NCBI GenBank assembly: GCA_023954175.1
Contig: JAMLIM010000009.1
Location: 1-64,000 of the forward strand
Direction of reading: 5' to 3'
Source: Rhizobacter sp.
Lineage (GTDB): Bacteria > Pseudomonadota > Gammaproteobacteria > Burkholderiales > Burkholderiaceae_C
Length of the DNA stretch: 64,000 nt
Both the position numbers and the translations under genes were made by a program. The stretch's first letter is position 1, and each line of letters opens with the position of its first letter. A model generated the notes under the pieces. The model was not told where the DNA came from, did no database searches, and was given only the letters and a program-made list of their open reading frames with translations. This document shows, in pieces, positions 1-23,958 of this stretch.

Positions 1-596
1 CGGGCGTGATCGACCTGCCGACGATCCAGCGCTACCTGAACTTCCACTTCTCGGTGACGATCGACCTCTTCGGTGCCGACCAGTCGAGCAACGCGGCGAT
101 CTTCTACAGCACCGGCCTGAAGGGCCGCTTCGAGGAAGGCAAGCGGGCCGACGACCACGTCCTCAAGGGCGCGACCTACAAGGTGCTCGAGGTGCATGGC
201 GGGCAGCTCGTCGAGAAGGAGGTGCCGATGCTCAATGCGCTGAACGAAGTGCTGCGCGACGACTACATCAAGGATTCGGTCGGCGGCGTCGAGCGCTGGA
301 ACAAGGTGATCGAGAAGGCCGGCATCGCGTTCCGCCTGAAGGTGCCGCACAAGGCGTTCCACCGCAACATCGGCGCGCTCGCGGGGCTCAAGGTCTCGCC
401 CGACGGCAAGGTCGTGACCGAGGCCGAATGGAACGCGAACGTCGATCAGTGGCTGCCGTCGGGAAGCGACCGCGCCTTCGTCGCCGGCCTGATGGGCCGC
501 GTCGTCGAGCCGGGCAAGTTCGCCAACTGGATCGCGCCGCCGATGATGGGCATCAACCGCCAGCCGGTGGACTTCGAATACGTCCGCTTCGGGTGA
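1..596 (+). CDS. boxB: Benzoyl-CoA 2,3-epoxidase subunit BoxB, C-terminal part (5' end outside window)
   Basis: Diiron oxygenase component of the aerobic box pathway. With the reductase BoxA it converts benzoyl-CoA to the 2,3-epoxide in the cytoplasm. The open frame enters from the left edge (first full codon at base 3) and gives about 197 residues to the TGA at 594-596. The family is roughly 470 residues, so this is the last two-fifths. The segment has the BoxB-type end, with the tract [20 protein letters not shown] just before the stop. The iron-ligand helices lie mostly outside the window. boxA follows after 22 bp, the usual order. Identification rests on overall family resemblance plus the adjacent boxA. 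Confidence 0.88.
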
Positions 597-618
597 CCCA
601 TCCGCCGAGGTCATCGAC

Positions 619-1890
619 ATGAACGCACCTGCCGAAATCGCCGTCATCAAGCAGCATCTGATCGATCCCGAGATCTGCATCCGCTGCAACACCTGCGAGG
701 TGAGCTGCCCGGTCGGCGCGATCACGCACGATTCGCGCAACTATGTCGTCGACCCCGACAAGTGCAAGCAGTGCATGGCATGCGTGCCGCCGTGCCCGAC
801 CGGCGCGATCGACAACTGGCGCACGATGCCCAAGGCGATCGCGCACAGCCTCGCGGCGCAATTCGAGTGGGATGAACTCCCGCCCGAACTGTCCACCGAC
901 GAGCTCGCCGCGGCGGGCGTCACGGCCGATGTCGAGATCGCCGAACCGACGCCGGCGGTGCTGCCGGCAGCGGCAAGCGGCGAGGAGCCATTCGACTCGG
1001 CGGCGTTCAATGCGACGCTGCCGCCCTGGTCCGCGGCGCACGCGTACACCAACCTCTACGGGCCGAAGAACCCGACGACGGCGACCGTCGTCGGCAACGT
1101 CCGCGTCACCCAGGTCGGCCGCGAGTACGACACGCACCATCTGATGCTCGACTTCGGCGCGATGCCGTATCCGGTGCTCGAAGGCCAGTCGATCGGCATC
1201 CTGCCGCCGGGCGTGGACGACAAGGGCCGGCCGCACCATGCGCGCCAGTACTCGATCGCCAGCCCGCGCAACGGCGAGCGCCCGGGCTACAACAACGTCT
1301 CGCTCACGATCAAGCGCGTGCTCGAAGATCACCAGGGCCGCCCGGTGCGAGGCGTGGCGTCGAACTACCTGTGCGACCTGAAGGTCGGCGACAAGGTGCA
1401 GGTCATCGGCCCGTTCGGCGCGAGCTTCCTGATGCCGAACCACCCGCGCTCCCACATCGTGATGATCTGCACCGGCACCGGCAGCGCCCCGATGCGTGCG
1501 ATGACGGAGTGGCGCCGGCGCCTGCGCGCCAGCGGCAAGTTCGAGGCCGGCAAGCTGATGCTGTTCTTCGGCGCGCGCACGAAGGAAGAGCTGCCGTACT
1601 TCGGCCCGCTGATGAACCTGCCGAAGGACTTCATCGACATCAATTTCGCCTATTCACGCACCGCCGACCAACCCAAGCGCTACGTGCAGGACCGGATTCG
1701 CGAGCGCGCCGCGGACCTCGCCGTGCTCCTGAAGGACCCGAACTCGTACTTCTACGTCTGCGGCTTGAAGAGCATGGAAGAAGGCGTCGTGCTCGCACTG
1801 CACGACGTGGCGCAACAGGCCGGGCTGTCGTGGGACAAGATCGGCCCCGCGCTCAAGGCCGAGGGGCGGCTGCACCTCGAGACCTACTGA
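619..1890 (+). CDS. boxA: Benzoyl-CoA 2,3-epoxidase reductase subunit BoxA
   Basis: NADPH-dependent flavo-iron-sulfur reductase that passes electrons to BoxB; 423 residues, normal for the family. The N-terminal 70 residues carry two [4Fe-4S] ferredoxin motifs ([15 protein letters not shown] and [15 protein letters not shown]). An Ala/Pro-rich linker follows, then from about residue 150 a ferredoxin-NADP reductase module with a flavin-binding RQYSIASP motif and a nucleotide-binding [10 protein letters not shown] motif. The ATG at 619 has a short purine-rich tract (cgagg) upstream and follows boxB by 22 bp, so the two are probably cotranscribed. Its 3' end overlaps the convergent HyfI-like gene by 7 bp, which marks the right boundary of the box locus. 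Confidence 0.93.
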
Positions 1891-2411
1891 CGGCCGCGCC
1901 GTACGGCGGTCAGGATGCCGCGCAGGATCTCCACCGGCGCCGGCGGGCAGCCCGGCACGGTGTGGTCCACCGCAATGACGTTGGCGACGCGTCCGCAGGT
2001 CGCGTAGTTCGTCTCGCCGAAGATGCCGCCGTTGCAGCCGCAGTCGCCGACGGCAACGACGAGCTTCGGTGCCGGCATCGCATCGTAGGTGCGGCGCAGC
2101 GCGGTCGCCATGTGGCGCGAGACGGGGCCGGTCACGAGCAGCATGTCGGCATGGCGCGGGCTGGCGACGAAGCGGATGCCGAGGCCTTCGATGTTGACGT
2201 AGGGGTTGTTGAGCGCGTTGATCTCGAGTTCGCAGCCGTTGCACGAGCCGGCGTCGACCAGGCGTATCGCGAGCGCGCGCCCGAGGATCGTGAGCAGTTC
2301 GCGCTGGATGCCTTCCGGCGAAACCGCCTGCGCGCCGTCGCCCGGCGCCACGTCGGGCGGCGCTTCGGTCAGGATGCCGGCGCGGGCGATCTGGCGCAGG
2401 GTCTTCCACAT
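1884..2411 (-). CDS. HyfI/NuoB-like Fe-S subunit of a hydrogenase-related membrane complex
   Basis: Small electron-transfer subunit of the complex I / group 4 hydrogenase superfamily, 175 residues from the ATG at 2411. The four ligands expected for the proximal [4Fe-4S] cluster are present: C57 and C60 (SCNGCE), C124 (GDCGC) and C155 (PGCPP). It should bind one cluster and dock on the HyfG-like subunit at the cytoplasmic membrane. An upstream in-frame ATG at 2459 would add 16 residues that do not resemble the family. It is the last gene of the minus-strand hyf-like operon, 107 bp after the HyfG-like stop, and overlaps convergent boxA by 7 bp. No HyfH/NuoI-type ferredoxin gene lies nearby. Confidence 0.85.
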
Positions 2412-2518
2412 GTCAGTGCCGCCCGGCCACCCGAAGGCGCCGACGCGCCCAAAGACCACGCAGTGGCCCCGGCAGGTCCATTGGGCAGCGAACGAAGTGG
2501 GCTTGGGGCAGTTTCATC

Positions 2519-4135
2519 CTAGAGGTCGTGCCCCGAATAGCTGAGGTTGAAGGACTTGTTGATGAGCGGGAAGTCGGGAACGATGTTGCCGATCGTCGCA
2601 TGTTCGAGCACCGGCCAGTTCTGCCATGACGGGTCGTGGCAATGACAGCGGCGGATGCATGAAGCGTCGTCGAGTTCGAGCGCGACGAACACCTCGCCGC
2701 GCCAGCCTTCGACCCAGCCCGCGCCGAACGCGGAGCGCGCGGGCAGCGTGATGTCGGCGCGCACGGCGCCGCCCGGCAGCGCGGCGCACAGTTCGCGCAT
2801 CAGGCGCAGCGATTCGCGCGTTTCGTCGAAGCGCACCGACACGCGTGCCGCGACGTCGCCTTCGGTGCGCGTCGCGCGCCGGACCGCGAGCGCGCCGTAG
2901 GGCGCGAAGGCATGGTCGCAGCGCAGGTCGGCCGGCTGCCCGCTCGCGCGGCCGGCGAGGCCGGTCAACCCGAGTTGCTGCGCGAGATCGGGCGTTGCGA
3001 TGCCGGTGCCGATGAAGCGGTCCTGCAGCCCCGCATGCTGGTCGTAGATCGCGCGCAGGGCGATCACTTCATGTTCGATCGCATCGCACTGGCGGCGCAG
3101 CGCCGTGAGCGCTTCGCTGCCGAGGTCCGTCGCAACACCGCCGGGGACGACCGCGTCCATCATCAGGCGGTGGCCGAAGGTCTCGCGCGACAGGCGCAGC
3201 CAGTCCTCGCGCAGGCGCGAGAACTGCGCCAGGCCGAAGGCGAGCGCGGCATCGTTGCCGATCGCACCGAGGTCGCCGAGGTGGTTGGCGACGCGCTCGC
3301 GTTCGAGCAGCAGCGCACGCAACACCGCCGCGCGCGCCGGCACGCTGCAGCCGGCGGCCGACTCGAGCGCCATGCAGTAAGCCCAGGCATGGGCCACGGT
3401 CGAGTCGCCCGAGACGCGGCCCGCGAGGCGATGGGCGTCGAGCGGCGCGAGTTCGGTGAAGCGGCGCTCGATGCCCTTGTGCGTGTATCCCAGGCGTTGC
3501 TCGAGGCGCAGCACCTTCTCGCCGACGACCGAGAAGCGGAAGTGCCCCGGCTCGATGATGCCCGCGTGCACCGGGCCGACCGCGATCTCGTGCACGCCGT
3601 CGCCTTCGACGCGCACGAAATCGTAGTCGGCGGCTTCGTTGGATGTTGCGAGGTCGGGCGTGGCGCCGTCTCTGCGCAAGGGCCGGAAGCGCGCACCGTC
3701 CGACGCGCGATCGGCCGCGCGCGGCCAGGCGCCATGGTCGATCCAGGGTCGCCGATCGGCCGGGTGATCGGCTTCGTGATGCGCCTCGATGCCGAGCAGG
3801 TCGGCGGCCGCGCGCTGCATGCGCAGTGCGGCAGGAAAGTGCTGCGACACATCCGGGTAGCGCGCCGCCACGCCATCGGCGGGCAATGCCAACTCGAGCC
3901 AGACCAGACCCTCGGGCAGCGCATAGGCCGCGCAGACGACGAGCGCGTTGCGGTCGCTCTCTTGGATGCCGTCGCTGCGGTCGCAACCCCAGAGCGACAC
4001 GAGCCGCCCGCCGCTGCCGCGCACTGCGGCGGCCGCAGCGCGCCATTGCGACGCGTTGACCGCGCCATGCCAGATAGGCAGCGGCGCCGGCACGCGCGCG
4101 AGGGCGAGGTCGAGGATCTTCATCGCCGTCATCAT
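2519..4135 (-). CDS. HyfG/HycE-like large subunit lacking the NiFe cysteine ligands
   Basis: Homologue of the NuoC-NuoD-like large subunit of group 4 hydrogenases, 538 residues. An N-terminal 30-kDa-like domain covers about the first 160 residues and a 49-kDa-like domain the rest, ending in the family tail SFNLSYSGHDL. In true NiFe enzymes the metal sits in RxCGxC and DPCxxC motifs. Here these read RVSGDS (residues 240-245, serines at 242 and 245) and DPSWQN (501-506, Ser503 and Asn506). All four cysteines are gone, so hydrogen chemistry is not expected. This matches the class called energy-converting hydrogenase-related (Ehr). Start chosen at 4135 for the ATGA overlap with the upstream gene; in-frame ATGs at 4132 and 4123 are alternatives. 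Confidence 0.85.
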   Translation of the reverse strand: MMTAMKILDLALARVPAPLPIWHGAVNASQWRAAAAAVRGSGGRLVSLWGCDRSDGIQESDRNALVVCAAYALPEGLVWLELALPADGVAARYPDVSQHFPAALRMQRAAADLLGIEAHHEADHPADRRPWIDHGAWPRAADRASDGARFRPLRRDGATPDLATSNEAADYDFVRVEGDGVHEIAVGPVHAGIIEPGHFRFSVVGEKVLRLEQRLGYTHKGIERRFTELAPLDAHRLAGRVSGDSTVAHAWAYCMALESAAGCSVPARAAVLRALLLERERVANHLGDLGAIGNDAALAFGLAQFSRLREDWLRLSRETFGHRLMMDAVVPGGVATDLGSEALTALRRQCDAIEHEVIALRAIYDQHAGLQDRFIGTGIATPDLAQQLGLTGLAGRASGQPADLRCDHAFAPYGALAVRRATRTEGDVAARVSVRFDETRESLRLMRELCAALPGGAVRADITLPARSAFGAGWVEGWRGEVFVALELDDASCIRRCHCHDPSWQNWPVLEHATIGNIVPDFPLINKSFNLSYSGHDL

Positions 4136-5586
4136 CCGCCGATCATCTGTGCCGCCTGGCGGTACCAGGTGTCGAGATAGGGCGGCACGTAAAGGCCCAG
4201 CATCAGCGCGAGCGCGAGGTGAACGAAGACCGGCACCAGCGCCGGCGGGTGCGGCAGCGCGCGTACCGTCGTCTCGCCGAACACCATCGGCTGCACCCGT
4301 GCGAACACAGCGGCGAATGCCACCGCGAGCGAGATCAGCAGCAGCGGCGTCGCCCACGGCTGCTCGCGCATCGCGGTCGTGATGATCATGAATTCACTCG
4401 CGAAGACGCCGAACGGCGGCATGCCGAGAATCGCGAGCGCACCGAGCATCAGGCCCCATGCGACGGTCGGGCTGACTTTGATGAGGCCGCGGATCTCGTC
4501 CATGATCTGCGTGCCGGCCTTTTGCGTCGCGTGGCCGACGGCGAAGAAGATCGCCGACTTGACGAGCGAGTGCACCGTCATGTGCAGCAGGCCGGCGTAG
4601 GTCGCGATCGGTCCGCCGAGGCCGAAGGCGAACGTCATCAGGCCCATGTGCTCGATCGACGAGTACGCGAACATGCGCTTCACGTCGCGCTGGCGGATCA
4701 GGAAGAACACCGCCGCAACCACCGACAGCAAGCCGAAGCCCATCATCAGCCGGCCGGCAAGTGCGCTCTGCAGCGCGCCGTCGGCGAGCACCTTGCAGCG
4801 CAACACCGCGTAGAGCGCGACGTTGAGCAGCAGGCCGGAGAGCACCGCGGAGACCGGCGTCGGGCCCTCGGCGTGCGCGTCGGGCAGCCAGTTGTGCAGC
4901 GGCACGAGGCCGACCTTGGTGCCGTAGCCGATGAAGAGGAAAGCGAAGGCGAGCGTGACGATGTCGGGATCGAGCTGCGCCTTCACCGCATTCAGGTTCG
5001 TCCACAGCAGCGCGCCGCCTTCGGCGCCCAGCACCTTCTCGGCCGCCATGTAGATCAGCACCGTGCCGAACAGCGCCTGCGCGATGCCGACGCCGCACAG
5101 GATGAAATATTTCCACGCCGCCTCCAGGCTCGCCGCGGTGCGATAGACGCTCACGAGCAGCACGGTCGTCAGCGTCGCCGCTTCCATCGCCACCCACAGC
5201 AGGCCGAGGTTGTTCGTCGTCAGCGCGAGCAGCATCGTGAAGCTGAACAGCTGGTACATGCTGTGATAGAGGCGCATGCGCGGCGGCGTCATCTTGCCGC
5301 GGTCGCGCTCGACGCGCATGTAGGGCCGCGAGAAGATCGCCGTCGTCAGCCCGACGAAGGCCGTCAGCGTGACGAGGAACACGTTCAACGCGTCGATGAA
5401 GAACTCTTTGTGCCAGACGAACTGCGGGCCGTCAGCGACGATCTGCGCCGTCAGCACGCACGCGGCGATGAAGGTGCCGAGGCTGAACGCGACGTTGACT
5501 TCGGGTGCCTTCTCGCGGTGACCGACGAGTGCGAGCACGAGCCCGCCAGCGAGCGGAATGCCGAGGACGAAGAGCAGGGGATGCAT
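4132..5586 (-). CDS. HyfF-like antiporter-type proton-pumping subunit
   Basis: Polytopic membrane protein of the NuoL/M/N - Mrp antiporter family, 484 residues, about 14 hydrophobic helices. The conserved channel region reads GTKVGLVPLHNWLPDAH, with the lysine and histidine typical of the proton path, followed by the EGPTPVSAVLSGLLLN segment. Expected to move ions across the cytoplasmic membrane when the hydrophilic arm transfers electrons. Start is the ATG at 5586 (MHPLLFVLGI), which begins directly with a membrane helix. A longer in-frame extension would run into repeat DNA and is rejected. It overlaps the HyfG-like gene by 4 bp (ATGA) but is separated from the upstream HyfE-like gene by 786 bp of repeats. 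Confidence 0.88.
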   Translation of the reverse strand: MHPLLFVLGIPLAGGLVLALVGHREKAPEVNVAFSLGTFIAACVLTAQIVADGPQFVWHKEFFIDALNVFLVTLTAFVGLTTAIFSRPYMRVERDRGKMTPPRMRLYHSMYQLFSFTMLLALTTNNLGLLWVAMEAATLTTVLLVSVYRTAASLEAAWKYFILCGVGIAQALFGTVLIYMAAEKVLGAEGGALLWTNLNAVKAQLDPDIVTLAFAFLFIGYGTKVGLVPLHNWLPDAHAEGPTPVSAVLSGLLLNVALYAVLRCKVLADGALQSALAGRLMMGFGLLSVVAAVFFLIRQRDVKRMFAYSSIEHMGLMTFAFGLGGPIATYAGLLHMTVHSLVKSAIFFAVGHATQKAGTQIMDEIRGLIKVSPTVAWGLMLGALAILGMPPFGVFASEFMIITTAMREQPWATPLLLISLAVAFAAVFARVQPMVFGETTVRALPHPPALVPVFVHLALALMLGLYVPPYLDTWYRQAAQMIGG

Positions 5587-5650
5587 GTCAGTGATCGCGC
5601 TGCTGCTTTGCCGCGTGCGACGAGACGCGATTCGGGAGCAGGCGCACTTT

Positions 5651-5774
5651 TGCATCGCGCCAGGCGGTGCCCACCGGGGGTTTGAGCGCCTGCGCGTAGC
5701 GCCAGGCGGTGCGTGCGGTCGGCTTCAGCGCTTTCGCGTCGCGCCAGGCGGTACCCGCCGGGGGCTCATGGTTG
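5651..5774. repeat. 42-bp minisatellite, about three units
   Basis: The core gccaggcggt recurs at 5659, 5701 and 5743, a period of exactly 42 bp. Because 42 is a multiple of 3, the minus strand reads as a degenerate 14-residue repeat (consensus about GTAWRDAKALK) without a stop. There is no convincing start codon or ribosome binding site, so it is treated as non-coding. Confidence 0.75.
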
Positions 5775-5775
5775 C

Positions 5776-6291
5776 GCGGTCGGCGCACAGCGCCGACTGC
5801 ACTGCGGTTCTCGGCCAGGGGTCGCGTCGCAGAACTCGCTTCACTCACTTCGTTCGTTGCGCTCAAACAGTTGCGACGAGTCAGTCTACGAAGCGCGCTG
5901 CGCGCGCCGACCCCTGTCCTGCGATCCTCGTCGCTCCACAAATCGCCCCCGGCGGGCACCGCCTGCCGCGACGGTTCTTCTCTTGTGTGGAGCAGAACAA
6001 ATGCACCAGCAAAGGCGTGCCCGGGCAGGCCACGGCGCGCCTGCGCAGCGCCGAGTAGGTGAGCAGGGACACAAGCGGTCCGGGGGACCGCTTGTGCCTT
6101 GCGAACGGCCGGGCGTCCTCGCCCGGCGCGGCCTGCAAGGCCAGGGCTCGTGGCCGCGCGCGCAGCGCGCTTCGTGATCTGACCCGTCGCGATTGTCTGA
6201 ACGGAGCGAACGCAGTGAGCGCAGTGAGTTGAGCGACGTGGCCGCGAGACCGAGCATCGCAGGGCAGTCGGCGCACCGCGCCGACCGCGGA
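5776..6291. repeat. Long imperfect inverted repeat
   Basis: The left arm (about 5776-5917) and right arm (about 6160-6291) are inverted copies. Matching islands include cggtcggcgc with gcgccgact, and acgaagcgcgctgcgcgcg read forward on the left and in reverse complement on the right. The arms are about 130-140 bp around a core of about 240 bp. It resembles a non-autonomous palindromic element, but no ends or target duplication could be defined by eye. Confidence 0.65.
6070..6096. terminator. Strong GC hairpin in the operon insert
   Basis: Perfect 12-bp stem (cacaagcggtcc paired with ggaccgcttgtg) around a ggg loop, without a T tract on either strand. A second short hairpin, ccgggc/gcccgg, lies at 6109-6126. 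It could slow or stop transcription between the HyfE-like and HyfF-like genes, or stabilise mRNA ends. Function is inferred only from shape. Confidence 0.4.
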
Positions 6292-6372
6292 GGTGAAGCG
6301 CCGTGGACTGCCCGGGCGCGACTTTGCCGCGCGAGACTCCGCGAGCGATGCCGTCGAAGCCGCCCATCATCC

Positions 6373-7032
6373 CTAGTCTTCCTTCAGCCGTTCGAGATGC
6401 CGGATGTCCAGGCTGTCGAACTGCTCGCGGATCTGGAAGATGAAGACGCCGAGGATCAGCACGCCGATCAGCACGTCGAGCGCGATGCCGAGCTCGACCA
6501 CCATCGGCATGCCGTAGGTGGCCGAGGTGGCGGCGAAGAAGAGGCCGTTCTCCATCGCCAGGAAGCCGATCACCTGCGGCACCGCCTTCGCGCGCGTGAT
6601 CATCATCAGGAACGACAGCAGCACGCAGGCCAGCGCGATGCCCACCGTCCCGCGCGCCAGCGTCGACGACGCCTGCGCGATCGGCAGCGCGAGGTTGAAC
6701 GAGACGATCACGATCAGGATGCCGATCAGCATCGTCGTCGGGATGTTGATCAGCGTCTCGACGTCGGACTGGATCTGCAGCCGGTCGACGACGCGGTGCA
6801 GCAGCCACGGGATGAGCACCACCTTGAGCACGAACGTGATCCCGGCCGAGAGGAACAGGTGGGACTGCGCGGTGACGTGCGCGACGACGAGGGTCGACAG
6901 CACGAGCACCGCGCCCTGCAGCGTGAACAGGTTGATCAGCGACAGCACGCGGCGCTGCGCGATCATCGCGAACGCGAGCATCAGCAGCACCGCGCCGAGC
7001 AGGTTGACGAGCTGGGCGAGCAAGGCGTTCAT
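6373..7032 (-). CDS. HyfE-like membrane subunit
   Basis: Small integral membrane subunit of hydrogenase-4-type complexes, 219 residues, with about six or seven hydrophobic helices and a short charged tail (HLERLKED). The N-terminal third resembles NuoK-type proteins, as expected of HyfE. The ATG at 7032 overlaps the stop of the HyfC-like gene by 4 bp (ATGA), which fixes the start and argues for translational coupling. Downstream lies the repeat-filled gap instead of the HyfF-like gene. It should form part of the ion-translocating membrane arm. Confidence 0.82.
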   Translation of the reverse strand: MNALLAQLVNLLGAVLLMLAFAMIAQRRVLSLINLFTLQGAVLVLSTLVVAHVTAQSHLFLSAGITFVLKVVLIPWLLHRVVDRLQIQSDVETLINIPTTMLIGILIVIVSFNLALPIAQASSTLARGTVGIALACVLLSFLMMITRAKAVPQVIGFLAMENGLFFAATSATYGMPMVVELGIALDVLIGVLILGVFIFQIREQFDSLDIRHLERLKED

Positions 7033-7982
7033 GCGTGCGTCTGAAGCAGGATGTGCACGAGCATGCCGATCACCGCGAGCAGGAACGCGGTGGCGAGGAA
7101 CTCGGGGACGCGAAAGATGCGCATCTTCGCGTTCAGCGTTTCGAGCACGGCGAGGGCGACGCCGCCGATCGCGAGCTTGAAGACGAGCAGCGGCAGCGCC
7201 AGCAGCAGCGCAAGCGGCGATTGCGCATCGGCGATGCCCCATGGGATGAAGAGCGCAAGGCCGATGCAGGAGTAGGCGAACAGCTTCAGGCTCGCCGCCC
7301 ATTCGATCAGCGCCAGGTGGCGGCCCGAGTATTCGAGGATCAGGGCCTCGTGGATCATCGTCAGCTCGAGGTGCGTGGCCGGGTTGTCGACCGGTACGCG
7401 CGCGTTCTCGGCGAGCGAGACCATGGTGAAGGCGACGCCCGCGAAGGCGAGGCCGGGGTAGATCATGAACTCGCGTTGCGAGAGCGTGTCGACGATGGTT
7501 GTCAACGACGTCGAATGCGAGATCAGCGACGCCGAGAACAGCACCATCAACAGGGCCGGCTCGGCGAGGAAGCCGATCAGCATCTCGCGCCGCGCGCCGA
7601 GCGTGCCGAACGAGGTGCCGATGTCCATCGCCGCGAGCGAGATGAAGACGCGGGCGAGGGCGAACAGGCCGACGAGCGCGATCGCGTCGGCCGCGACCGA
7701 CAGCGGCAGGTCGGTCGAGAGCGTCGGCACGATGCCGCAGGCAAGCAGCATGCAGCCGAAGACGATGTAGGGCGTGGCGCGAAAGAGGGGCGAGGCGCTT
7801 GATGCGACGACCGACTCCTTGTTGAAGAGCTTGTGCAGCACCCGGTACGGCTGCAGCAGCGGCGGCGCCGACTTGTTCTGCAACCAGGCGCGCCACTGGT
7901 TGACCCACCCGCTGAGCACCGGCGCGAGCGCGAGCGCGACGACGATCTCGAGCAGTTGGGCGAACGCGCCGGCGATGCTCAT
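7029..7982 (-). CDS. HyfC/HycD-like (NuoH family) membrane subunit
   Basis: Membrane subunit linking the hydrophilic arm to the antiporter-like subunits, 317 residues, about eight helices. The family signature is present: YRVLHKLFNKESV near residue 50, then AENARVPVDNPATHLELTMI and HEALILEYSGRHL, the acidic loop that contacts the HyfI/HyfG-like subunits. It starts with ATG at 7982, overlapping the HyfB-like stop by 4 bp, and ends 4 bp inside the HyfE-like gene, so the B-C-E genes are tightly coupled. Length and motifs look intact. Confidence 0.88.
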   Translation of the reverse strand: MSIAGAFAQLLEIVVALALAPVLSGWVNQWRAWLQNKSAPPLLQPYRVLHKLFNKESVVASSASPLFRATPYIVFGCMLLACGIVPTLSTDLPLSVAADAIALVGLFALARVFISLAAMDIGTSFGTLGARREMLIGFLAEPALLMVLFSASLISHSTSLTTIVDTLSQREFMIYPGLAFAGVAFTMVSLAENARVPVDNPATHLELTMIHEALILEYSGRHLALIEWAASLKLFAYSCIGLALFIPWGIADAQSPLALLLALPLLVFKLAIGGVALAVLETLNAKMRIFRVPEFLATAFLLAVIGMLVHILLQTHA

Positions 7983-9958
7983 CGCTTCACCACCAGCAGC
8001 GTTGCGATGAGCGTCAGGAAGCTGTAGAGCAGGTAGGTGCCGATGCGTCCCTGCTGCAGCAGGCCGACGAGCCGCGCGATGCGCTCCGCGAGCGCGACGA
8101 CCGGCAGGTAGAGCCAGCGCCAGAAGTGATCTTCGATCGTCACGCGGTAGCGCGGCCGGGCGTCGAAGGGCGAAGGCAGTTCGCGCTGCATGCGAAAGAA
8201 CGGCTCGAAGATCTGGCGCACCGGCTGGCCGAAGCCCTCGGCCGTGTCCTGCATGCGCGCCGTCTGCCACGGGTAGCCGCAGTCCCACGCCGGGGCGCGG
8301 CGGATGCGGCCGTGATAGAAGCGCCGCACGATCAGCCAGGCGAGGGCGAAACTGGCGACGACGCCGAGGAAGAAGATCAGCGGCCCGTAGCTTGCGCGCT
8401 CGACGCTCGTCGGCGCCAGCAGCCAGCCGCCGCCGGCAGCGGTGTCGGCGAGCCCGGCGCTGACGAGTTGCCGCGTGACGGGATCGAGCACGCCGATGAA
8501 CTGCACCGGCAGCAGGCCGAGCGCGACGCAGCCGGCCGCCAGCCACAGCATGCCGGCGCGCTCCCAGCGGCCGGCGTCATGCGCGCGCGCGAGCTTGGCC
8601 TCGCGCGGCTGGCCGAGGAAGATGACGCCGAAGAACTTGACCATCGTGTAGCCGGCGAGCGCGGCGACGAGCGCGATCAGCGCGGCGACGGCCGGGATCA
8701 GCATGTTCAGGAGCGGGTCCGGCAATCCGGGGGCGAACAGGAAGCTCTGCAGCAGCAGCCATTCGGAGACGAAGCCCGACAGCGGCGGCAACCCCGCGCT
8801 TGCGAGCACACCGACGAGCGTGAGCCAGGCGACGCGCGGCATGTGGCGGATCAACCCGCCGAGCTTGCCGAGGTTGCGCTCGCCCGTCGCGTGCAGCACG
8901 CAGCCGGTGCTCAGGAACAGCAGGCTCTTGAAGAACGCATGACCCGCGACGTGGTAGAGCATCGCCGTCAACGCGAGCGCGGCCATCGGCGCCATGCCGT
9001 AGGCGAAGAAGATCACGGCCAGGCCCATGCCGGCGAACACGAGGCCGATGTTCTCGATCGACGAGTAGGCGAGCAGCCGCTTCATGTCGGTCTGCACCGC
9101 GGCGAAGACGACGCCGAACAGCGCGGTCGCGAGGCCGACCGCGAGCAGCACCGCGCCCCACCACCATTGCGGCGCCGACAGCAGATCGAAGACGACGCGC
9201 AACATGCCGTAGACCGCGACCTTGAGCATCACCGCGCTCATCAGCGCCGACACCGGCGACGGCGCCGCCGGGTGCGCCTCGGGCAGCCAGACGTGCAATG
9301 GCACGAGGCCGGCCTTTGCGCCGAAGCCGAGCAGCGCGAGCGTGAAGGCGATGGCGCCCCAGAAGGGACTGAGCGACTGCGCGCGCATGTTGGCGAAGCT
9401 GTAGTCGCCGCTTTGCGCCTGCAGCACGCCGAAGCACAGCAGGATCGCGATTGCGCCGATGTGGGCCAGCGTCAGGTACAGGTAGCCGGCCTTGCGCACC
9501 TCGGCGATGCGATGGTTCGCGGTGACGAGGAAGTAGGACGACAGCGCCATCGTCTCCCACATCACCATGAAGGCATAGGCATCGTCGGCCAGCACGACCA
9601 TCGCCATGCTCGCGAGGAAGAGGTGGTACTCGAGGCACAGCAGGCCCGGCGGCGTGCCTTCGCCCTGGCGGAAGTAGCCCGCCGCGAAGACCGACACACC
9701 GGCCGAGACGGCGCCGATCACGAACAGGAAGAAGGCCGAGAGGGCATCCAGGCGCAGGTGAAACGGCAGCCCCGGCAGGCCGAAGGGAAGCACCGCGACC
9801 TGCGCGCCGTCGAACACGGCCACGAGCGCGAACGCGGCGAGCGCGAGACCGCAGACGCCGCCGGCCGGAAACAGCACGCGCGCGACGAAGGCCAGCCGGC
9901 GCAGCGCGAGGATGCCGGCGGCACCGATCGCGAGCCAGGCCACCAGCACGACGAGCAT
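7979..9958 (-). CDS. HyfB-like antiporter-type proton-pumping subunit
   Basis: Large NuoL/M-type membrane subunit, 659 residues from the ATG at 9958. It has 14 or more helices, an extended C-terminal amphipathic/transmembrane tail, and the conserved GAKAGLVPLHVWLPEAHPAA channel segment with the glutamate helix AFMVMWETMALSSYF before it. It is one of two antiporter-like subunits of the complex (HyfB and HyfF types). An alternative GTG start at 9994 overlaps the stop of the upstream ribbon-helix-helix gene as GTGA and would add 12 residues. Neither start has a clear Shine-Dalgarno sequence, so coupling to the upstream gene is plausible. It overlaps the HyfC-like gene by 4 bp. Confidence 0.87.
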   Translation of the reverse strand: MLVVLVAWLAIGAAGILALRRLAFVARVLFPAGGVCGLALAAFALVAVFDGAQVAVLPFGLPGLPFHLRLDALSAFFLFVIGAVSAGVSVFAAGYFRQGEGTPPGLLCLEYHLFLASMAMVVLADDAYAFMVMWETMALSSYFLVTANHRIAEVRKAGYLYLTLAHIGAIAILLCFGVLQAQSGDYSFANMRAQSLSPFWGAIAFTLALLGFGAKAGLVPLHVWLPEAHPAAPSPVSALMSAVMLKVAVYGMLRVVFDLLSAPQWWWGAVLLAVGLATALFGVVFAAVQTDMKRLLAYSSIENIGLVFAGMGLAVIFFAYGMAPMAALALTAMLYHVAGHAFFKSLLFLSTGCVLHATGERNLGKLGGLIRHMPRVAWLTLVGVLASAGLPPLSGFVSEWLLLQSFLFAPGLPDPLLNMLIPAVAALIALVAALAGYTMVKFFGVIFLGQPREAKLARAHDAGRWERAGMLWLAAGCVALGLLPVQFIGVLDPVTRQLVSAGLADTAAGGGWLLAPTSVERASYGPLIFFLGVVASFALAWLIVRRFYHGRIRRAPAWDCGYPWQTARMQDTAEGFGQPVRQIFEPFFRMQRELPSPFDARPRYRVTIEDHFWRWLYLPVVALAERIARLVGLLQQGRIGTYLLYSFLTLIATLLVVKR

Positions 9959-9990
9959 GCCGTCGATCGGCAGCCAGTGCACGGGCGGCG

Positions 9991-10251
9991 TCACCTGGCA
10001 GGGCGTCGCTTGCGCGACGGCGCGGGCGTGGACGTCGACGTGGACGTGGACGTGGACGGAGCGGCCTTCGGGTCGGCGGCGCCTTGCGTGCCGCTGGGCA
10101 CGTAGCTCACGTCGTGCGCGGTCAGGTAGTCGCGGATCAATTGGCGCACGACCTGCGAGGGCGTCAGGTCCTGCGCCGCGCACAACTGCTCGAAGGCCTG
10201 CTTCTTGGCTGGGTCGATCAGCAGCGTGAGCCGCGCGGTTTTGAGTTCCAC
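9991..10251 (-). CDS. Small CopG-type ribbon-helix-helix protein with Ser/Thr repeat tail
   Basis: 86 residues from a GTG at 10251. The first 45 residues fit a ribbon-helix-helix DNA-binding fold: a beta strand (ARLTLLID) followed by two helices (KKQAFEQLCAAQD and TPSQVVRQLIRDYL). The C-terminus is low complexity, with an alternating Ser-Thr run encoded by a hexamer repeat and then a basic tail. As the first gene of the hyf-like operon it may be its own regulator; this is inference. A TATGAT box sits only about 7 bp before the GTG, so a leaderless transcript is possible. An antitoxin role is another option, but no toxin gene is adjacent. Confidence 0.65.
   Translation of the reverse strand: MELKTARLTLLIDPAKKQAFEQLCAAQDLTPSQVVRQLIRDYLTAHDVSYVPSGTQGAADPKAAPSTSTSTSTSTPAPSRKRRPAR
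10028..10063. repeat. Hexanucleotide microsatellite (gtggac), six units
   Basis: Six consecutive units of gtggac (the second reads gtcgac) inside the 3' part of the ribbon-helix-helix gene. They encode the Ser-Thr run on the minus strand. Gain or loss of a unit stays in frame, so tail length could vary between strains without a frameshift. Confidence 0.85.
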
Positions 10252-14598: not shown

Positions 14599-15360
14599 AT
14601 GAGCGACGACGACGGCTTCTTCGCCCGCTGGTCGCGGCGCAAGGTGCAGCAGCGCGAAGGCGTCGCGCCCGACGCTACGCCCGCTGTGGCGAAGGACACA
14701 GCGCCGGCCGCGGCGCGCGCATCGATCGCGCCAACCCCGGCGCCCCAGGTGGCGAGCCCGCCGCCGCAGACGGCCGATCCGTCTGCGTTGCCCGCGGTGG
14801 CGCGGGAGCCGGCGCTGCCGGCACCGACCCTGGCGGACGTCGCGCAGTTGACGCCGCAGTCCGATTTCTCGCGCTTCGTCGCCGCAGGCGTCGACGCGGG
14901 GGTGCAGCGCGCCGCGCTCAGGAAGCTCTTCAGCGATCCGCACTTCAACGTGATGGATGGGCTCGACACCTACATCGGCGACTACAACACGCCCGATCCG
15001 ATTCCCGACGCGATGCTGCGTCGCCTGCGGCAATCGAAGACGCTGGGGATCTTCGACGTGCCGGAGCCTGCTGCGGGCGCCGCTGCGGGTGCCACCGCCG
15101 CCGACGCGGGCGCCGCGGACGCGATGGGCGCGACTGCCGCGCCCGCGCACGAGAGCGCGCACGAGAGCGCGGCCGAGAACGCCCCCGAGACTTCCCCCGA
15201 TGGCGCACCGGCGCCGACCCTGTCACAGTCGGCCGCCGCCGAGAACGGCGATCGCCCACCCGAGCCCCGACCCGATGAAGACACTGCTTTGCGACTGCAA
15301 CCGGACGATGCCGCTGACGCGGCCGACGCTGGAGCGCATCGCCCAGGCCCTCGGGCCTGA
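14599..15360 (+). CDS. DUF3306 protein of the formate dehydrogenase cluster
   Basis: 253-residue protein of the DUF3306 family. The N-terminal FFARWSRRKVQ motif is followed by a long Ala/Pro-rich linker. A central conserved block (about 85-150: LTPQSDFSRFVAAGVD, ALRKLFSDPHFNVMDGLD, YIGDYN) comes next, then another low-complexity Ala-rich tail. No signal peptide or cofactor motif is seen. Its 3' end overlaps the start of the polyferredoxin gene by 86 bp in another frame, unusually long. The low-complexity tail may be a late extension. Function unknown; it accompanies DUF3305 in FDH operons. Confidence 0.8.
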   Translation: MSDDDGFFARWSRRKVQQREGVAPDATPAVAKDTAPAAARASIAPTPAPQVASPPPQTADPSALPAVAREPALPAPTLADVAQLTPQSDFSRFVAAGVDAGVQRAALRKLFSDPHFNVMDGLDTYIGDYNTPDPIPDAMLRRLRQSKTLGIFDVPEPAAGAAAGATAADAGAADAMGATAAPAHESAHESAAENAPETSPDGAPAPTLSQSAAAENGDRPPEPRPDEDTALRLQPDDAADAADAGAHRPGPRA

Positions 15361-17425
15361 CGCCGCCGACGGGCTGCAGACGGGGCACACGCTGCTGTGC
15401 CGGCGCGAGGCCGGCGCGTTCCAGCGCGCCGCCAAGAGCGGCGACGAACTGCTCGTCGCCTGCACGCAGGAGAGCCGGCTGTTCCTCGAACTCGCCGACG
15501 AGACCGAAGGCGCGCCGGGCCTGCAGGAGCGGCCGATCCGCTTCGTCAACATCCGCGAGACCGGCGGCTGGTCGAAGGCGGCGCGCGAGGCGCCGGCCAC
15601 CGTCGTGCCCAAGATCGCGGCGCTCCTGGCGGCCGCCCAGTTGCCCGAGCCGGACCCGGTCGCGACGGTGAGTTACAAGTCGGCCGGCCGCGTGCTCGTG
15701 ATCGGCGCCGCGAACCGTGCGCTGCGCGCGGCGGACATGCTGGCCGACAAGCTCGACGTCAGCCTGCTGCTCACCGACCCGCGCGGCCGGGTGCCGCAGA
15801 CGCGCGCCACTGCGGTGCACGCCGGGCGCGTGACCTCGCTCCATGGCTGGCTCGGCGCATTCGACGTGCGGTGGCAGAGCAGCAATCCGATCGACCTCGA
15901 TCTGTGCACGCGCTGCAACGCCTGCATCGACGTCTGCCCGGAAGGCGCGATCAGCTTCGCCTACCAGATCGACCTCGACAAGTGCAAGTCCCACCGCGAC
16001 TGCGTTCGCGCCTGCGACGCCGCCGGCGCGATCGACTTCGAGCGCGCGCCGCTCGAGACGGACGAGCACTTCGACCTCGTGCTCGATCTCGGCGACGCGC
16101 CGCTGATCGCGCTGCACCAGCCGCCGCAGGGCTACCTGCACGCGGGCGACGACGAGTCGCTCGTGCGTGCCGTGCTGCAACTGCGCGAGCTGGTAGGCGA
16201 ATTCGAGAAGCCCAAGTTCTTTCAGTACAAGGCCAAGCTGTGCGCGCACAGCCGCAACGAGCGCGTCGGTTGCGACGCCTGCATCGAGGTCTGCTCGGCG
16301 CAGGCAATCGTGAGCGACGCCAACGGCTCGGGCGGCATCATCGTCAACCCGAACCTGTGCGTCGGCTGCGGCGCCTGCACGACGGTCTGCCCGACGGGTG
16401 CGATGGCCTACGCAACGCCGAGCGCGCCGCATCAGGGTCGGCACATCCGCACCCTGCTGTCGACCTACCGCCGCGCCGGCGGCGTCGCGGCGGCGGGCGC
16501 GCCGGCACTGCTCGTGCACAGCCAGGGGGAGGGCGCGCGGCTGATCGGCGAGCTGGGCCGCCTGGCGCGCACGTCGTCGGCGATCCGCGGGGTGCCGCCG
16601 CGCGTGCTGCCGCTCGCGGTGTGGCACACCGCATCGGTCGGCATCGATCTGTGGCTGGCGGCGATCGCGCAGGGCGCGGCGCAGGTCTGGGTGCTGATGA
16701 CGCACGAGGAGGCGCCCGAGTACCGGCTGGCCGTGGCGGCGCAGATGCGCGTCGCGCAGGCGGTGCTGACGGGGCTCGGTTTCAGCGGGGAGCATCTGCG
16801 CCTGATCGAGGCCGACGACGCGCCGGCGCTCGACAAGGCGTTGGATGCTTCGCCCGCACAAGCGGTGAAGACGCCCGCGACCTTCGACGTGCAGGCCGAC
16901 AAGCGCGGCACGCTCGATCTCGCGCTCGAGCATTTGATTGCGCAGACCGCCGCAGTCCCCGAGACGATCGGCCTCGACAAGATCGCCAGCCCCTGGGGCA
17001 GCGTCGAGATCGACAAGCAGCGCTGCACGATGTGCCTGAGCTGCGTCGGGGCCTGCCCGTCCGCCGCGCTCGGCGACAACCCGGACCGGCCGCAGCTGCG
17101 CTTCATCGAAACCAACTGCGTGCAGTGCGGGCTGTGCGCGAGCACCTGCCCGGAGCAGGCGATCGCGCTCGTGCCGCGCCTGTTGCTCGCCGACGGCGGA
17201 CGCGCGCGCAGGCAGATGCGCGTCATCAACGAGGCCGAGCCGTTCGCCTGCGTGCGCTGCGGCAAGCCGTTCGGCACGCTGCGCGCGATCGAGGCGATCG
17301 TCGGCCGGCTCGCGGGGCATTCGATGTTCCAGGGCGCCGCGGCCGAGCGCCTGAAGATGTGCTCGGACTGCCGCGTGATCGACATCCACACGAGCGCAGA
17401 CGAAGTGAGGATCGACCGGCTGTGA
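15275..17425 (+). CDS. Multi-[4Fe-4S] polyferredoxin of the FDH cluster
   Basis: Cytoplasmic iron-sulfur protein of 716 residues from ATG 15275. An N-terminal region has cysteines at 6, 8, 42 and 63 and a Rossmann-like VLVIGAANRALRAADML stretch near 140. Then come a ferredoxin motif at 211 (CTRCNACIDVC), a second CKSHRDCVRAC set, CDACIEVC, CVGCGACTTVC, and near the end CTMCLSCVGAC and CVQCGLCASTC. A final CVRC with a distant CSDC could bind a further cluster or zinc. It probably relays electrons or helps deliver clusters during FDH assembly; no catalytic domain is recognised. It overlaps the next gene as GTGA. Confidence 0.85.
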   Translation: MKTLLCDCNRTMPLTRPTLERIAQALGPDAADGLQTGHTLLCRREAGAFQRAAKSGDELLVACTQESRLFLELADETEGAPGLQERPIRFVNIRETGGWSKAAREAPATVVPKIAALLAAAQLPEPDPVATVSYKSAGRVLVIGAANRALRAADMLADKLDVSLLLTDPRGRVPQTRATAVHAGRVTSLHGWLGAFDVRWQSSNPIDLDLCTRCNACIDVCPEGAISFAYQIDLDKCKSHRDCVRACDAAGAIDFERAPLETDEHFDLVLDLGDAPLIALHQPPQGYLHAGDDESLVRAVLQLRELVGEFEKPKFFQYKAKLCAHSRNERVGCDACIEVCSAQAIVSDANGSGGIIVNPNLCVGCGACTTVCPTGAMAYATPSAPHQGRHIRTLLSTYRRAGGVAAAGAPALLVHSQGEGARLIGELGRLARTSSAIRGVPPRVLPLAVWHTASVGIDLWLAAIAQGAAQVWVLMTHEEAPEYRLAVAAQMRVAQAVLTGLGFSGEHLRLIEADDAPALDKALDASPAQAVKTPATFDVQADKRGTLDLALEHLIAQTAAVPETIGLDKIASPWGSVEIDKQRCTMCLSCVGACPSAALGDNPDRPQLRFIETNCVQCGLCASTCPEQAIALVPRLLLADGGRARRQMRVINEAEPFACVRCGKPFGTLRAIEAIVGRLAGHSMFQGAAAERLKMCSDCRVIDIHTSADEVRIDRL

Positions 17426-18045
17426 AACCGATTGCCTTCAACGAAGCCTCGGACGAGCACGACGAACTCGCGCGCGCCGAGGTCTACGGGCTGCTTGCCA
17501 CGCTGTTCCAGGCGGCACCGTCCGAGGATCTCTACGCGCAGCTGCAGGTCGCCGTCACGCAGGCGCCGGTCTCGGGCGCGTTTCTGGAGCACGCGTTCGG
17601 CGAGCTCGTCGCCACCTCGCGCCGCCTGACGCTCGATGCCGTGCGCGCCGAGTACGCCACCTTGTTCGAGGGCATCGGCAAGCCCGAGGTGTTCCTCTAC
17701 GGCTCCTACTTCATCGCCGGCACGCTCAACGACAAGCCTCTGGCCGTGCTGCGCGACGCGCTGCGCGCGCTCGGGCTCGAGCGCGACCCGATGATCGTCG
17801 AGACCGAGGATCACATCGCCTGCCTGTGCGAGGTCATGCGCTTCCTGATCGCGGGCGACGATCTCGGCGTGAGCAACCTCGCGACGCAGCAGCACTTCTT
17901 CAACACGCAGATCCGGCCCTGGAGCGACGAGCTCTTCGATGTGCTGATCGCGCACCCGAAGAGCGACTTCTATCGCGCGCTGGCGGCCTTCGCACGCGAC
18001 TTCTTCAGCGTCGAGGCGCAGGCCTTCGACATGATCGAGGGCTGA
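17422..18045 (+). CDS. TorD/DmsD-family chaperone for a molybdoenzyme
   Basis: All-helical cytoplasmic chaperone of 207 residues, which by family function binds the Tat signal of a molybdopterin enzyme and helps cofactor insertion. The family-type core YATLFEGIGKPEVFLYGSYF lies near residues 75-95 and EDHIACLCEVMRFL near 130. The start is a GTG at 17422 whose last bases form the stop of the preceding gene (GTGA), so translation is probably coupled. The client is likely the Tat-exported FDH catalytic subunit encoded about 450 bp downstream. Confidence 0.85.
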   Translation: MKPIAFNEASDEHDELARAEVYGLLATLFQAAPSEDLYAQLQVAVTQAPVSGAFLEHAFGELVATSRRLTLDAVRAEYATLFEGIGKPEVFLYGSYFIAGTLNDKPLAVLRDALRALGLERDPMIVETEDHIACLCEVMRFLIAGDDLGVSNLATQQHFFNTQIRPWSDELFDVLIAHPKSDFYRALAAFARDFFSVEAQAFDMIEG

Positions 18046-18209
18046 GCAAGCTTGCGCGAAGCTGACTTTCCAGCACGTCGCAGGCCTATGTTCGTCGGTG
18101 CCTACCCTGATGACGTGCACTGCGTAGCGGCCTACATTCGACCGAGGAAGGGTGCGCCGGGATCGACGCGCCGTACCCGAGGCAAGTTCACTCGCGGAGG
18201 CCCACACAC

Positions 18210-18455
18210 ATGAAGCGACCGTCAATCCAAGGCGATCCAGGTACGTCGAGCGATCCCGGGTCCCCACTCAAGCGCCGCGGCGTGCTGCTCGGCACCGGGG
18301 CGGTGGCGCTGGCGGGCGTCGCGGGCGCGGTGGCTTCGCGCAACGCGCCGACCGAAGTGGCGCAGGTGCAGGACAAGCTGCGTCCCGAGGGCGAAGCCGA
18401 TGGTTATCGGCTGACCGCGCACGTGCGGCGCTACTACGAAACGATTCGAGTCTGA
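18210..18455 (+). CDS. Small Tat-signal protein of the FDH region
   Basis: 81 residues with a twin-arginine-type leader: KRRGVLLGTGAVALAGVAGAVA, with arginines at residues 22 and 23 followed by a hydrophobic stretch. The rest is a short polar tail ending YYETIRV. It matches the small formate dehydrogenase region Tat-target family found before fdh structural genes. The role is unknown. It could be a small subunit or assembly factor translocated with FDH. A good ribosome binding site (cggagg) precedes the ATG. The 164 bp upstream (18046-18209) hold no gene and probably contain the promoter for the structural genes, though no clear boxes were found. Confidence 0.8.
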   Translation: MKRPSIQGDPGTSSDPGSPLKRRGVLLGTGAVALAGVAGAVASRNAPTEVAQVQDKLRPEGEADGYRLTAHVRRYYETIRV

Positions 18456-18492
18456 ACCACCCCACCGCTGCACGCGGACCACGGGAGTCTCC

Positions 18493-21453: not shown

Positions 21454-21488
21454 GCCCCGCAACGACCACCCGGCAAGAGGACTGAGCC

Positions 21489-22118
21489 ATGGCCCGAATG
21501 AAGTTCATCTGTGACGCCGAGCGCTGCATCGAGTGCAACGGCTGCGTCACCGCGTGCAAGGCGGAGAACGACGTGCCCTGGGGCGTCAACCGGCGTCGCG
21601 TCGTCACGCTCAATGACGGCGTGCCGGGCGAGAAGAGCATCTCGGTCGCCTGCATGCATTGCAGCGACGCGCCGTGCATCGCCGTCTGCCCGGTCAACTG
21701 CATCTATCACACCACCGAAGGCGTCGTCCTGCACGACAAGGACGTCTGCATCGGCTGCGGCTACTGCAGCTATGCCTGCCCGTTCGGCGCGCCGCAGTTC
21801 CCGAGCAACGGCACCTTCGGCCTGCGCGGCAAGATGGACAAGTGCACCTTCTGCGCCGGCGGCCCCGAAGCCAACGGCAGCGAAGCCGAGTTCGAGAAGT
21901 ACGGCCGCAATCGGCTCGCCGAAGGCAAGCTGCCGATCTGCGCCGAGATGTGCTCGACCAAGGCGCTGCTGGGTGGCGACGGCGACGTCATCGCCGACAT
22001 CCTGCGCACGCGCGTCGTCAGCCGCGGCACCGGCAGCGAAGTCTGGGGCTGGGGGACCGCCTATGGCCGCCCCGCGGCACCGGCGCCGGCGACGCCAACG
22101 AGCGGGGGGAAGAAGTGA
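21489..22118 (+). CDS. fdhB: Formate dehydrogenase Fe-S (beta) subunit
   Basis: Electron-transfer subunit of 209 residues that should hold four [4Fe-4S] clusters: CIECNGCVTAC, CMHCSDAPCIAVCP, CIGCGYCSYACP, and the split CTFC...CAEMC set. It has no signal peptide, consistent with co-export with the Tat-tagged catalytic subunit. No C-terminal anchor helix is seen, unlike the longer FdnH of E. coli. The Ala/Pro tail ends in a TGATG junction with the small lipoprotein gene. Electrons pass from fdhA to the cytochrome b subunit. Confidence 0.93.
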   Translation: MARMKFICDAERCIECNGCVTACKAENDVPWGVNRRRVVTLNDGVPGEKSISVACMHCSDAPCIAVCPVNCIYHTTEGVVLHDKDVCIGCGYCSYACPFGAPQFPSNGTFGLRGKMDKCTFCAGGPEANGSEAEFEKYGRNRLAEGKLPICAEMCSTKALLGGDGDVIADILRTRVVSRGTGSEVWGWGTAYGRPAAPAPATPTSGGKK

Positions 22119-22351: not shown

Positions 22352-22383
22352 GCCGTGATTTCCGCCCCACAGCAGGAGACAGC

Positions 22384-23544: not shown

Positions 23545-23569
23545 ACCCGATCGCACAAGGAACGACAGC

Positions 23570-23881: not shown

Positions 23882-23958
23882 TCGCCCGGCGACCCCCGGC
23901 GCCCCGCGTTGCGCCCTTGCAGCCGGTGCCGGATTGGCATTGCGGCCAGAATCCGGGC

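Follow-up and report, generated by a model that had tools for sequence, protein, structure and literature searches.

The window, by which we mean the whole 64,000-nucleotide stretch of Rhizobacter sp. DNA analysed here (C138:1-64000, from a genome of 3.9 Mb in 148 contigs, 94.7% complete), carries an operon that we assign with high confidence to the energy-converting, or Ech, hydrogenase-related (Ehr) complexes and to the ion pumps. Its six genes, hyfB-C-E-F-ehrL-ehrS, lie on the minus strand at 9982-1884, and all six reading frames were open, as an initial annotation of the same DNA had stated. The features of the locus are listed below in the direction of the operon, with lengths in amino acids (aa).

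9991..10251, minus strand: 86-aa open reading frame (ORF) just 5' of hyfB, a possible regulator, ribbon-helix-helix-like by eye
7979..9982, minus strand: hyfB-like antiporter subunit, 667 aa, GTG start; PF00361, NF005086 at 935 bits (cut-off 667)
7029..7982, minus strand: hyfC-like (NuoH/HycD-like) membrane subunit, 317 aa; PF00146
6373..7032, minus strand: hyfE-like membrane subunit, 219 aa; NF008556 at E=1.3e-26 and 94 bits, under the cut-off of 136
5587..6372, no strand: repeat-rich gap of 786 bp between hyfE and hyfF, which abut in locus L036
4132..5586, minus strand: hyfF-like antiporter subunit, 484 aa; PF00361, NCBIfam NF005045 at 915 bits (cut-off 543)
2519..4135, minus strand: ehrL, HyfG/HycE/NuoCD-like large subunit with a fused NuoC-like domain, 538 aa; PF00346, PF00374, PF00329
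3551..3553, minus strand: codon of EhrL Glu195, in common with HycE and not with NuoCD; 138/138 EhrL, the window's included
3401..3418, minus strand: RVSGDS box (EhrL residues 240-245) with Ser242, Asp244 and Ser245, opposite HycE RVCGIC
2618..2635, minus strand: DPSWQN stretch of EhrL, opposite HycE AATYAN; conserved, not a ligand site
2522..2563, minus strand: EhrL C-terminal INKSFNLSYSGHDL with Asn526, Lys527, Ser532 and Gly535, opposite HycE DPCYSC
1884..2411, minus strand: ehrS, HyfI/NuoB-like small subunit, 175 aa; PF01058, proximal [4Fe-4S] Cys 57, 60, 124 and 155

Pfam profiles and the solved-structure match both agreed with the earlier placement of the large subunit at 2519-4135 on the minus strand, the top solved match of EhrL being HycE of E. 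coli formate hydrogenlyase (7z0s_E, E=1.2e-54 by phmmer), while EhrS best matched MbhJ (6cfw_J) and HycG (7z0s_G). The HyfB-, HyfC-, HyfE- and HyfF-like subunits, also predicted at that stage, were recovered with Pfam or NCBIfam profiles, the hyfE product giving no match in the Pfam scan. No HyfH/NuoI-type ferredoxin ORF was found in the window operon in the ORF list or in the Pfam and NCBIfam scans, again as had been claimed. The best 80 of 588 relatives, referred to here as the named loci, were the best matches to EhrL and came mostly from Burkholderiales; where more than 7.5 kb of upstream sequence was available the six-gene order was constant (59/59 loci).

The former Ni-Fe site was compared in phmmer alignments with 7z0s_E and in MAFFT alignments with HycE, HyfG and NuoCD. 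RVCGIC of HycE lay over RVSGDS of EhrL, the pairing given in the initial annotation. Its second pairing, of DPCxxC with DPSWQN, was not upheld: HycE DPCYSC lay over NLSYSG, within the last 14 residues of EhrL (INKSFNLSYSGHDL), and DPSWQN lay, 31 residues earlier, over HycE AATYAN. The emptied ligand positions are Ser242, Ser245, Ser532 and Gly535, and the Asn of the proposed set of Ser, Ser, Ser and Asn does not occupy a ligand position.

The family alignment contained 138 EhrL proteins, the window's included, which we divided into five clades by the C-terminal motif of EhrL (92 in clade I, 27 in II, 8 in III, 7 in IV and 4 in V). The alignments of EhrL, EhrS and the pump subunits drew on loci L036-L115 and L148-L187 plus L024-L026, L030-L034 and L205-L207, with other short search loci omitted, matches below 70 bits excluded and a single HyfB and a single HyfF retained per locus. 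The four ligand Cys occurred together in 0/138 EhrL. Residues at the ligand positions were S/C/A/V at the first, S/T/C/A/G/D at the second, S/A/G/N/T at the third and G/A/E at the fourth, and a conserved Ser/Ser/Ser/Asn set, as had been envisaged, was not borne out, since the ligand positions differ between relatives and the second motif had been misaligned. A lone Cys was still found at the first position in 5/138 proteins, four from clade I and one from clade III, and at the second in 2/138, both of clade II; these occurrences speak against a clean story of ligand loss. According to an excerpt of PMC3569383 (every paper is cited here from excerpts), Desulfotomaculum ruminis EhrL has all four Cys, so that intact relatives are on record for the wider Ehr family. 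Loss of the Ni-Fe Cys is a usual, not a strict, feature of Ehr.

In the MAFFT alignment the C-terminus of EhrL fell opposite HycE Arg537, where NuoCD also stops. We take Arg537 to be the point at which HycI cleaves HycE; in group 4 [NiFe] hydrogenases a C-terminal extension is cut off during maturation. Both this extension and the four Cys ligands of such hydrogenases were missing from EhrL in the alignments. HypD (PF01924) gave no match in the window's genome, which is 94.7% complete, and was not found in 22/39 Ehr-bearing genomes searched. The one PF00374 match of the genome was weak (E=6.8e-7, match position not listed), in line with EhrL itself, which scores 1.5e-6. With neither the ligands nor HypD, EhrL would not be a hydrogenase large subunit in function. 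In the class search one in-frame stop was flagged in each of the EhrL matches G239:C38, G539:C1 and G512:C51; for G239 and G539 a long frame of EhrL, its C-terminal motif intact, can still be read.

Asp244, Asn526 and Lys527, which lie beside the ligand positions, were present in 127/127 proteins of clades I-III, and Glu195, a hydrogenase-type residue that HycE also has and NuoCD lacks, in 138/138 EhrL. Among the 92 clade I proteins the mean commonest-residue frequency over the two pocket stretches (240-246 and 522-538, without the ligand positions) was 0.965, compared with 0.788 in the remaining EhrL core and 0.58 in the NuoC-like domain, and 342/20000 random block pairs of equal lengths reached the pocket value. 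The coordinated change looks to reside in these adjacent residues (Asp244, Asn526, Lys527) and not in the ligands themselves. The earlier suggestion of coordinated replacement in place of decay is in this respect half right: a stable lineage is supported, whereas the coordinated set comprises the adjacent residues and not the ligand positions. From the ligand positions in HycE we infer that Asp244, Asn526 and Lys527 would face one another.

The quinone ligands of complex I are presumably a His and a Tyr of NuoD. At the His column EhrL has Ile194, with Ile in 127/127 proteins of clades I-III, and at the Tyr column Gly243, with Gly in 136/138 EhrL. In a quick tree search, which carried a long-branch warning and included 20/92 clade I rows, the five Ehr clades grouped together against HycE/HyfG and NuoD with a Shimodaira-Hasegawa-like approximate likelihood-ratio test (SH-aLRT) value of 95, a topology compatible with one ligand loss. 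A stable non-NiFe lineage, as first supposed, is supported by the lack of a four-Cys member among the 138, by purifying selection and by constant gene order. Two Ehr operons of different clades were seen side by side at some loci, clades I and II in L084 and L112 and clades I and III in L090, L092 and L103; the clade III operon of the latter pairs has its own ferredoxin gene.

The proximal Fe-S cysteines that had been noted in the small subunit are conserved. EhrS Cys57, Cys60, Cys124 and Cys155 follow the hydrogenase CxxC pattern, each being present in at least 134 of the 135 proteins aligned and all four in 92/92 clade I members. The adjacent Cys pair (CC) of NuoB is not present in EhrS, and neither is a three-Cys-only proximal cluster of the type found in the sulfane reductase MBS; the four Cys are spaced as CxxC, like those of HycG and MbhJ. 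Two further residues near the proximal cluster, Cys126 and Cys139, occur in 75/92 and 67/92 of clade I and in 10/25 and 17/25 of clade II, and are absent from clades III and IV. We rejected them as a second cluster, as they are not fixed in clade I.

Searches by tblastn with HycF, HyfH and NuoI located a ferredoxin gene between ehrL and ehrS at all 8 clade III and all 7 clade IV loci, and none in clade I or II operons or in clade V loci. The matches at clade I loci were to BoxA beside ehrS (L036 and the window) or to distant genes (L063, L076). This search covered the window only in part, and the absence of a ferredoxin gene from the window operon rests on the ORFs, Pfam and NCBIfam. Since one cluster is predicted in the window complex, a donor would have to dock on the EhrS cluster directly.

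The membrane arm has retained the antiporter Glu/Lys and HyfC acidic residues from which translocation is predicted. In HyfF, Lys224 and Lys303 were found in 129/129 proteins, Glu135 in 124/128 and Glu398 in 128/129; in HyfB, Glu143 and Lys223 in 115/115, Glu407 in 116/116 and Lys301 in 113/116; and in HyfC, Glu141, Glu206 and Glu217 in 113/114 and Asp199 in 108/109. The columns of HyfB Lys223 and Lys301 are occupied in E. coli HycC by Leu and Gln. Similarity to the window was higher for HyfC than for the EhrL core in 13/13 genomes and higher for HyfF in 14/14 (means: EhrL core 74%, HyfC 80%, HyfF 82%). Complex I showed the reverse, NuoD exceeding NuoH and NuoM in 12/12 (85, 78 and 75%), and only HyfC and HyfF invert the usual complex I conservation order. 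The HyfB value of G107 (32%) and the NuoN values of 25-28% are paralogue matches, which enter the means and none of the tests. The ratio of nonsynonymous to synonymous substitution rates (dN/dS) was 0.12-0.50 in 17 usable of 18 gene comparisons, indicating purifying selection; the unusable one was HyfB against L036, whose contig is without hyfB and where a paralogue had been matched. No stop codons were found in the 32 Ehr matches listed.

A candidate electron partner emerged from gene co-occurrence, for which presence lists were transcribed by hand from the genome searches. Clade I EhrL was present in 19/200 family genomes (in one, G101, from an N-terminal fragment). The 2-oxoacid:ferredoxin oxidoreductase (OAFO; alpha family, TIGR03710) occurred in 17/19 of these and in 48/181 others (p=1e-7); it was the fourth profile tried, the three earlier ones having given a weaker signal. 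Against 37 near relatives hand-chosen among the higher-ranking NuoD matches the counts were 17/19 and 16/37 (p=0.0013). RuBisCO (11/19 vs 61/181), NiFe hydrogenase (7/19 vs 27/181) and CoxL (4/19 vs 11/181) each gave uncorrected p values of 0.02-0.05. A link with lithotrophy was rejected, any of the three being present in 11/19 vs 72/181 (p=0.15), and RuBisCO showed no trend over independent pairs (1.5 same way vs 1.8 opposite).

In the window's genome 2-oxoacid:acceptor oxidoreductase genes at L238 (G000:C32, 1349-6446) adjoin two genes of the anaerobic benzoyl-CoA route, those for 6-hydroxycyclohex-1-ene-1-carbonyl-CoA dehydrogenase (Had) and 6-oxocyclohex-1-ene-1-carbonyl-CoA hydratase (Oah), both of which scored over their cut-offs. 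Together with BoxAB, the L238 genes give this genome marks of both the aerobic and the anaerobic benzoyl-CoA routes. Ferredoxin might be produced or consumed at the L238 benzoyl-CoA genes.

On balance we favour the view that the operon encodes a six-subunit, complex I-like, redox-driven ion pump of the inner membrane, which would have come from a group 4 [NiFe] hydrogenase and would not itself be a hydrogenase. A low-potential carrier would dock on EhrS/EhrL at the site of the missing HyfH/NuoI subunit, the leading candidate being ferredoxin reduced by OAFO; ferredoxin is offered as a tentative partner and as a candidate, not as a result. The electron would pass through the single EhrS cluster to a small acceptor in the re-tooled EhrL cavity. 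This acceptor would most likely be a quinone, held by residues other than those of complex I, and as the other partner the quinone is, by analogy, proposed just as tentatively. The acceptor would occupy the Asp/Asn/Lys pocket, where Glu195 would serve to relay protons, and protonation at the cavity would move the HyfC acidic path and thereby ions through HyfF and HyfB. The reverse direction would use identical parts.

Three types of site are known in the complex I superfamily: Ni-Fe for H2, His/Tyr for quinone and an open cluster for polysulfide. None of the three (Ni-Fe, quinone His/Tyr, MBS cluster) fits the window complex in the alignments. It is conceivable, if rather unlikely, that Asp244, Asn526 and Lys527 fill the metal cavity beside the [4Fe-4S] cluster and Glu195 to give a further active-site chemistry, confined to clades I-III, in which ferredoxin-level electrons would be coupled to pumping by way of an acceptor new to the superfamily.

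Several points weigh against the proposed pump. It is a prediction made from sequence. Clades IV and V are without Asp244, Asn526 and Lys527, which are hence not needed in every Ehr, and because the complex I quinone residues are absent a quinone acceptor would be a matter of analogy alone. The conservation contrast fails for HyfB, whose values of 60-78% are about those of the EhrL core (one paralogue match aside), the difference between the EhrS core and HyfF was non-significant (mean -2.1, p=0.1), and all of these comparisons were made against the window and are not independent. Over 7 independent pairs OAFO changed the same way as Ehr in 2.6 and the opposite way in 0.3 on average (median p 0.5); these pairs lean toward a link at low power, and the association is not independent of phylogeny. 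In the class sample OAFO was present in 5/12 vs 70/356 for clade I (p=0.07) and in 7/32 vs 68/336 for clade II (p=0.82), the clade being taken from score alone for G397, G361, G375, G512, G528, G316, G265 and G499, and G267 being counted as clade I despite its tail CNKSFNGS and a tree position outside clades I and II. Because one copy adjoins anaerobic benzoyl-CoA genes, OAFO may be only a marker of an anaerobic or aromatic-degrading lifestyle.

Clustered flanking ORFs of the 80 named loci, with clusters named by eye, revealed no recurrent redox partner; what clustered was metG, mrp, further genes that by eye looked like housekeeping ones, and numerous shadow ORFs on the opposite strand. The 86-aa ORF upstream of hyfB matched no family in Pfam or NCBIfam, and a homologue stood upstream on the same strand at 21/80 named loci. 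The insert between hyfE and hyfF (5587-6372) contains 102-nt inverted arms (76%) as well as spaced direct repeats of 42 nt, and one strand of window 5870-6160 folds better than shuffles (z -3.0); the insert is not in L036, whose gene limits are those of the same-genus genome G107 (L007). On the plus strand, window 6-1890 encodes the C-terminal part of BoxB, truncated where the contig begins, and BoxA, both subunits of benzoyl-CoA 2,3-epoxidase. BoxA has a ferredoxin domain, and its end overlaps the stop side of ehrS by 7 bases, tail to tail. A benzoate link through these neighbours was rejected as conserved context, BoxA being near Ehr at 1/80 named loci (L036).

A formate dehydrogenase (FDH)-like cluster lies on the plus strand of the window at 14957-24816 and comprises a polyferredoxin-like ORF, an FdhA-like protein, a ferredoxin, a membrane protein and an FdhD-like protein. 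The FdhA-like protein scored 454 bits against TIGR01591, under the cut-off of 666, and has a twin-arginine-like start by eye; a homologue (79%) also follows Ehr-metG-mrp in L076. As a regular Ehr context the FDH neighbour was rejected, with one close and two weak matches in 133 loci (flanks up to 10 kb).

Of the alternatives to a pump driven by low-potential electrons, the one that survives best, unlikely as we hold it to be, is that the complex runs in reverse, with an ion motive force driving electrons uphill from quinol or another donor to ferredoxin, for example for benzoyl-CoA reduction. The anaerobic benzoyl-CoA route uses reduced ferredoxin, the OAFO copy in this genome adjoins the Had and Oah genes of that route, and the parts and the OAFO association are identical for the two directions, of which the sequence gives neither. 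For the ech, eha, ehr and mbh enzymes of Methanospirillum hungatei, ferredoxin reduction by ion gradients is thought likely in an excerpt of PMC4704411. Against this, OAFO already supplies reduced ferredoxin, and a second source seems unneeded.

Less probable again is a redox-gated or redox-independent cation/proton antiporter, serving pH or ion homeostasis, in which EhrL/EhrS would be a sensor or a cap without a turnover substrate. The retained pump residues, the conservation of HyfC and HyfF above that of the EhrL core and the misfit to the three known active-site types would all suit such a role, and an excerpt of PMC6688271 lists ehrABCDLS among genes possibly keeping pH homeostasis. The near-invariance of the cluster Cys and of the pocket goes beyond the need of a cap, however. 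We regard as improbable the scheme, put forward for candidate phyla (PMC6349859), in which Ehr supplies the membrane part of a complex that oxidises formate (FDH-Ehr). FDH-like clusters occur in the window and in L076, and Ehr subunits were more abundant on formate in Geobacter (PMC7894505), but the near absence of close FDH homologues from the flanks argues against it, and the window enzyme, with its twin-arginine-like signal, would face the periplasm. That the operon is the decaying remnant of a hydrogenase-4 operon, as missing HyfA, HyfD, HyfH and maturation genes, the likening of six Cupriavidus genes to an incomplete operon (PMC2864759) and the single stops in the Ehr matches of G239, G539 and G512 might suggest, can practically be dismissed given the low dN/dS, the single gene order, the near-invariant pocket and the stop-free matches listed.

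The redox-driven pump is best placed by comparison with known systems. Ehr was already known from comparative work with its donor and acceptor not established, as the initial annotation had stated: its function is called unknown in excerpts of PMC12342949, PMC10284858 and PMC7894505, still so as of 2025 in the first of these, and it is further described as a known family in PMC6349859, PMC10432482 and PMC3569383. Both PMC6688271 and PMC4704411 name the six-gene set ehrABCDLS. In the open-access literature no experiment that assigns a donor or an acceptor was found (subscription papers were outside the scope).

The sulfane reductase MBS/MBX of Pyrococcus is likewise a hydrogenase-derived pump that has lost its Ni-Fe site, and differs in keeping two of the four ligand Cys and having a three-Cys catalytic cluster (excerpt of PMC7684303). 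Solved MbsL and MbsJ (6u8y) match EhrL and EhrS, whereas the window complex has four EhrS Cys in CxxC spacing, keeps Glu195 and encodes no MbsN-like ferredoxin subunit. With complex I the window complex shares the loss of the four Cys, the place of the C-terminus and the pump residues, and with that of E. coli also the fused NuoC-NuoD arrangement; it differs in having Ile194/Gly243 for the quinone His/Tyr, CxxC in place of adjacent Cys, and neither NADH module nor NuoI. E. coli formate hydrogenlyase and hydrogenase-4 offer the closest solved EhrL fold, the CxxC-type EhrS cluster and Glu195, and HyfB and HyfF score over the NCBIfam hydrogenase-4 cut-offs. In contrast, EhrL is without the four Ni-Fe Cys and terminates opposite HycE Arg537, HyfB has Lys where HycC has Leu and Gln, and counterparts of HyfA, HyfD and HyfH are lacking from the operon.

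The window operon has what defines Ehr, namely group 4-type and antiporter-like subunits in one operon of six genes with the Cys lost. Published examples, as excerpted, are Geobacter sulfurreducens GSU0739-45, the Nitrospira Ehr and Cupriavidus hyfBCEFGI (H16_A2196-2201, Rmet_4666-4671), which share group 4-type large and small subunits, NuoL/HyfE-like membrane subunits and the lack of Ni-Fe ligands; no defining difference was found, the Geobacter, Nitrospira and archaeal Ehr being likened by published descriptions and not by sequences. Excerpts of this literature record Ehr from nitrifiers, from Geobacter and Cupriavidus and from candidate phyla, with a function unknown or only proposed. The window complex is an ordinary member of a known family; what merits keeping is the invariant set of replacement residues, the misfit to three site types and the candidate ferredoxin link, by which the "missing cysteines" are recast as positives: residues in a vacated site, site types that do not fit and a single candidate for the electron partner. 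In the Cupriavidus sets the six genes are those of the window (PMC2864759, excerpt), and the Cupriavidus loci fall within the window's clade. As the identical six genes are present in Cupriavidus necator H16, a strain that is tractable in the laboratory (H16_A2196-2201; C. eutrophus H16 in that paper), the donor, the acceptor and the ion are directly testable.

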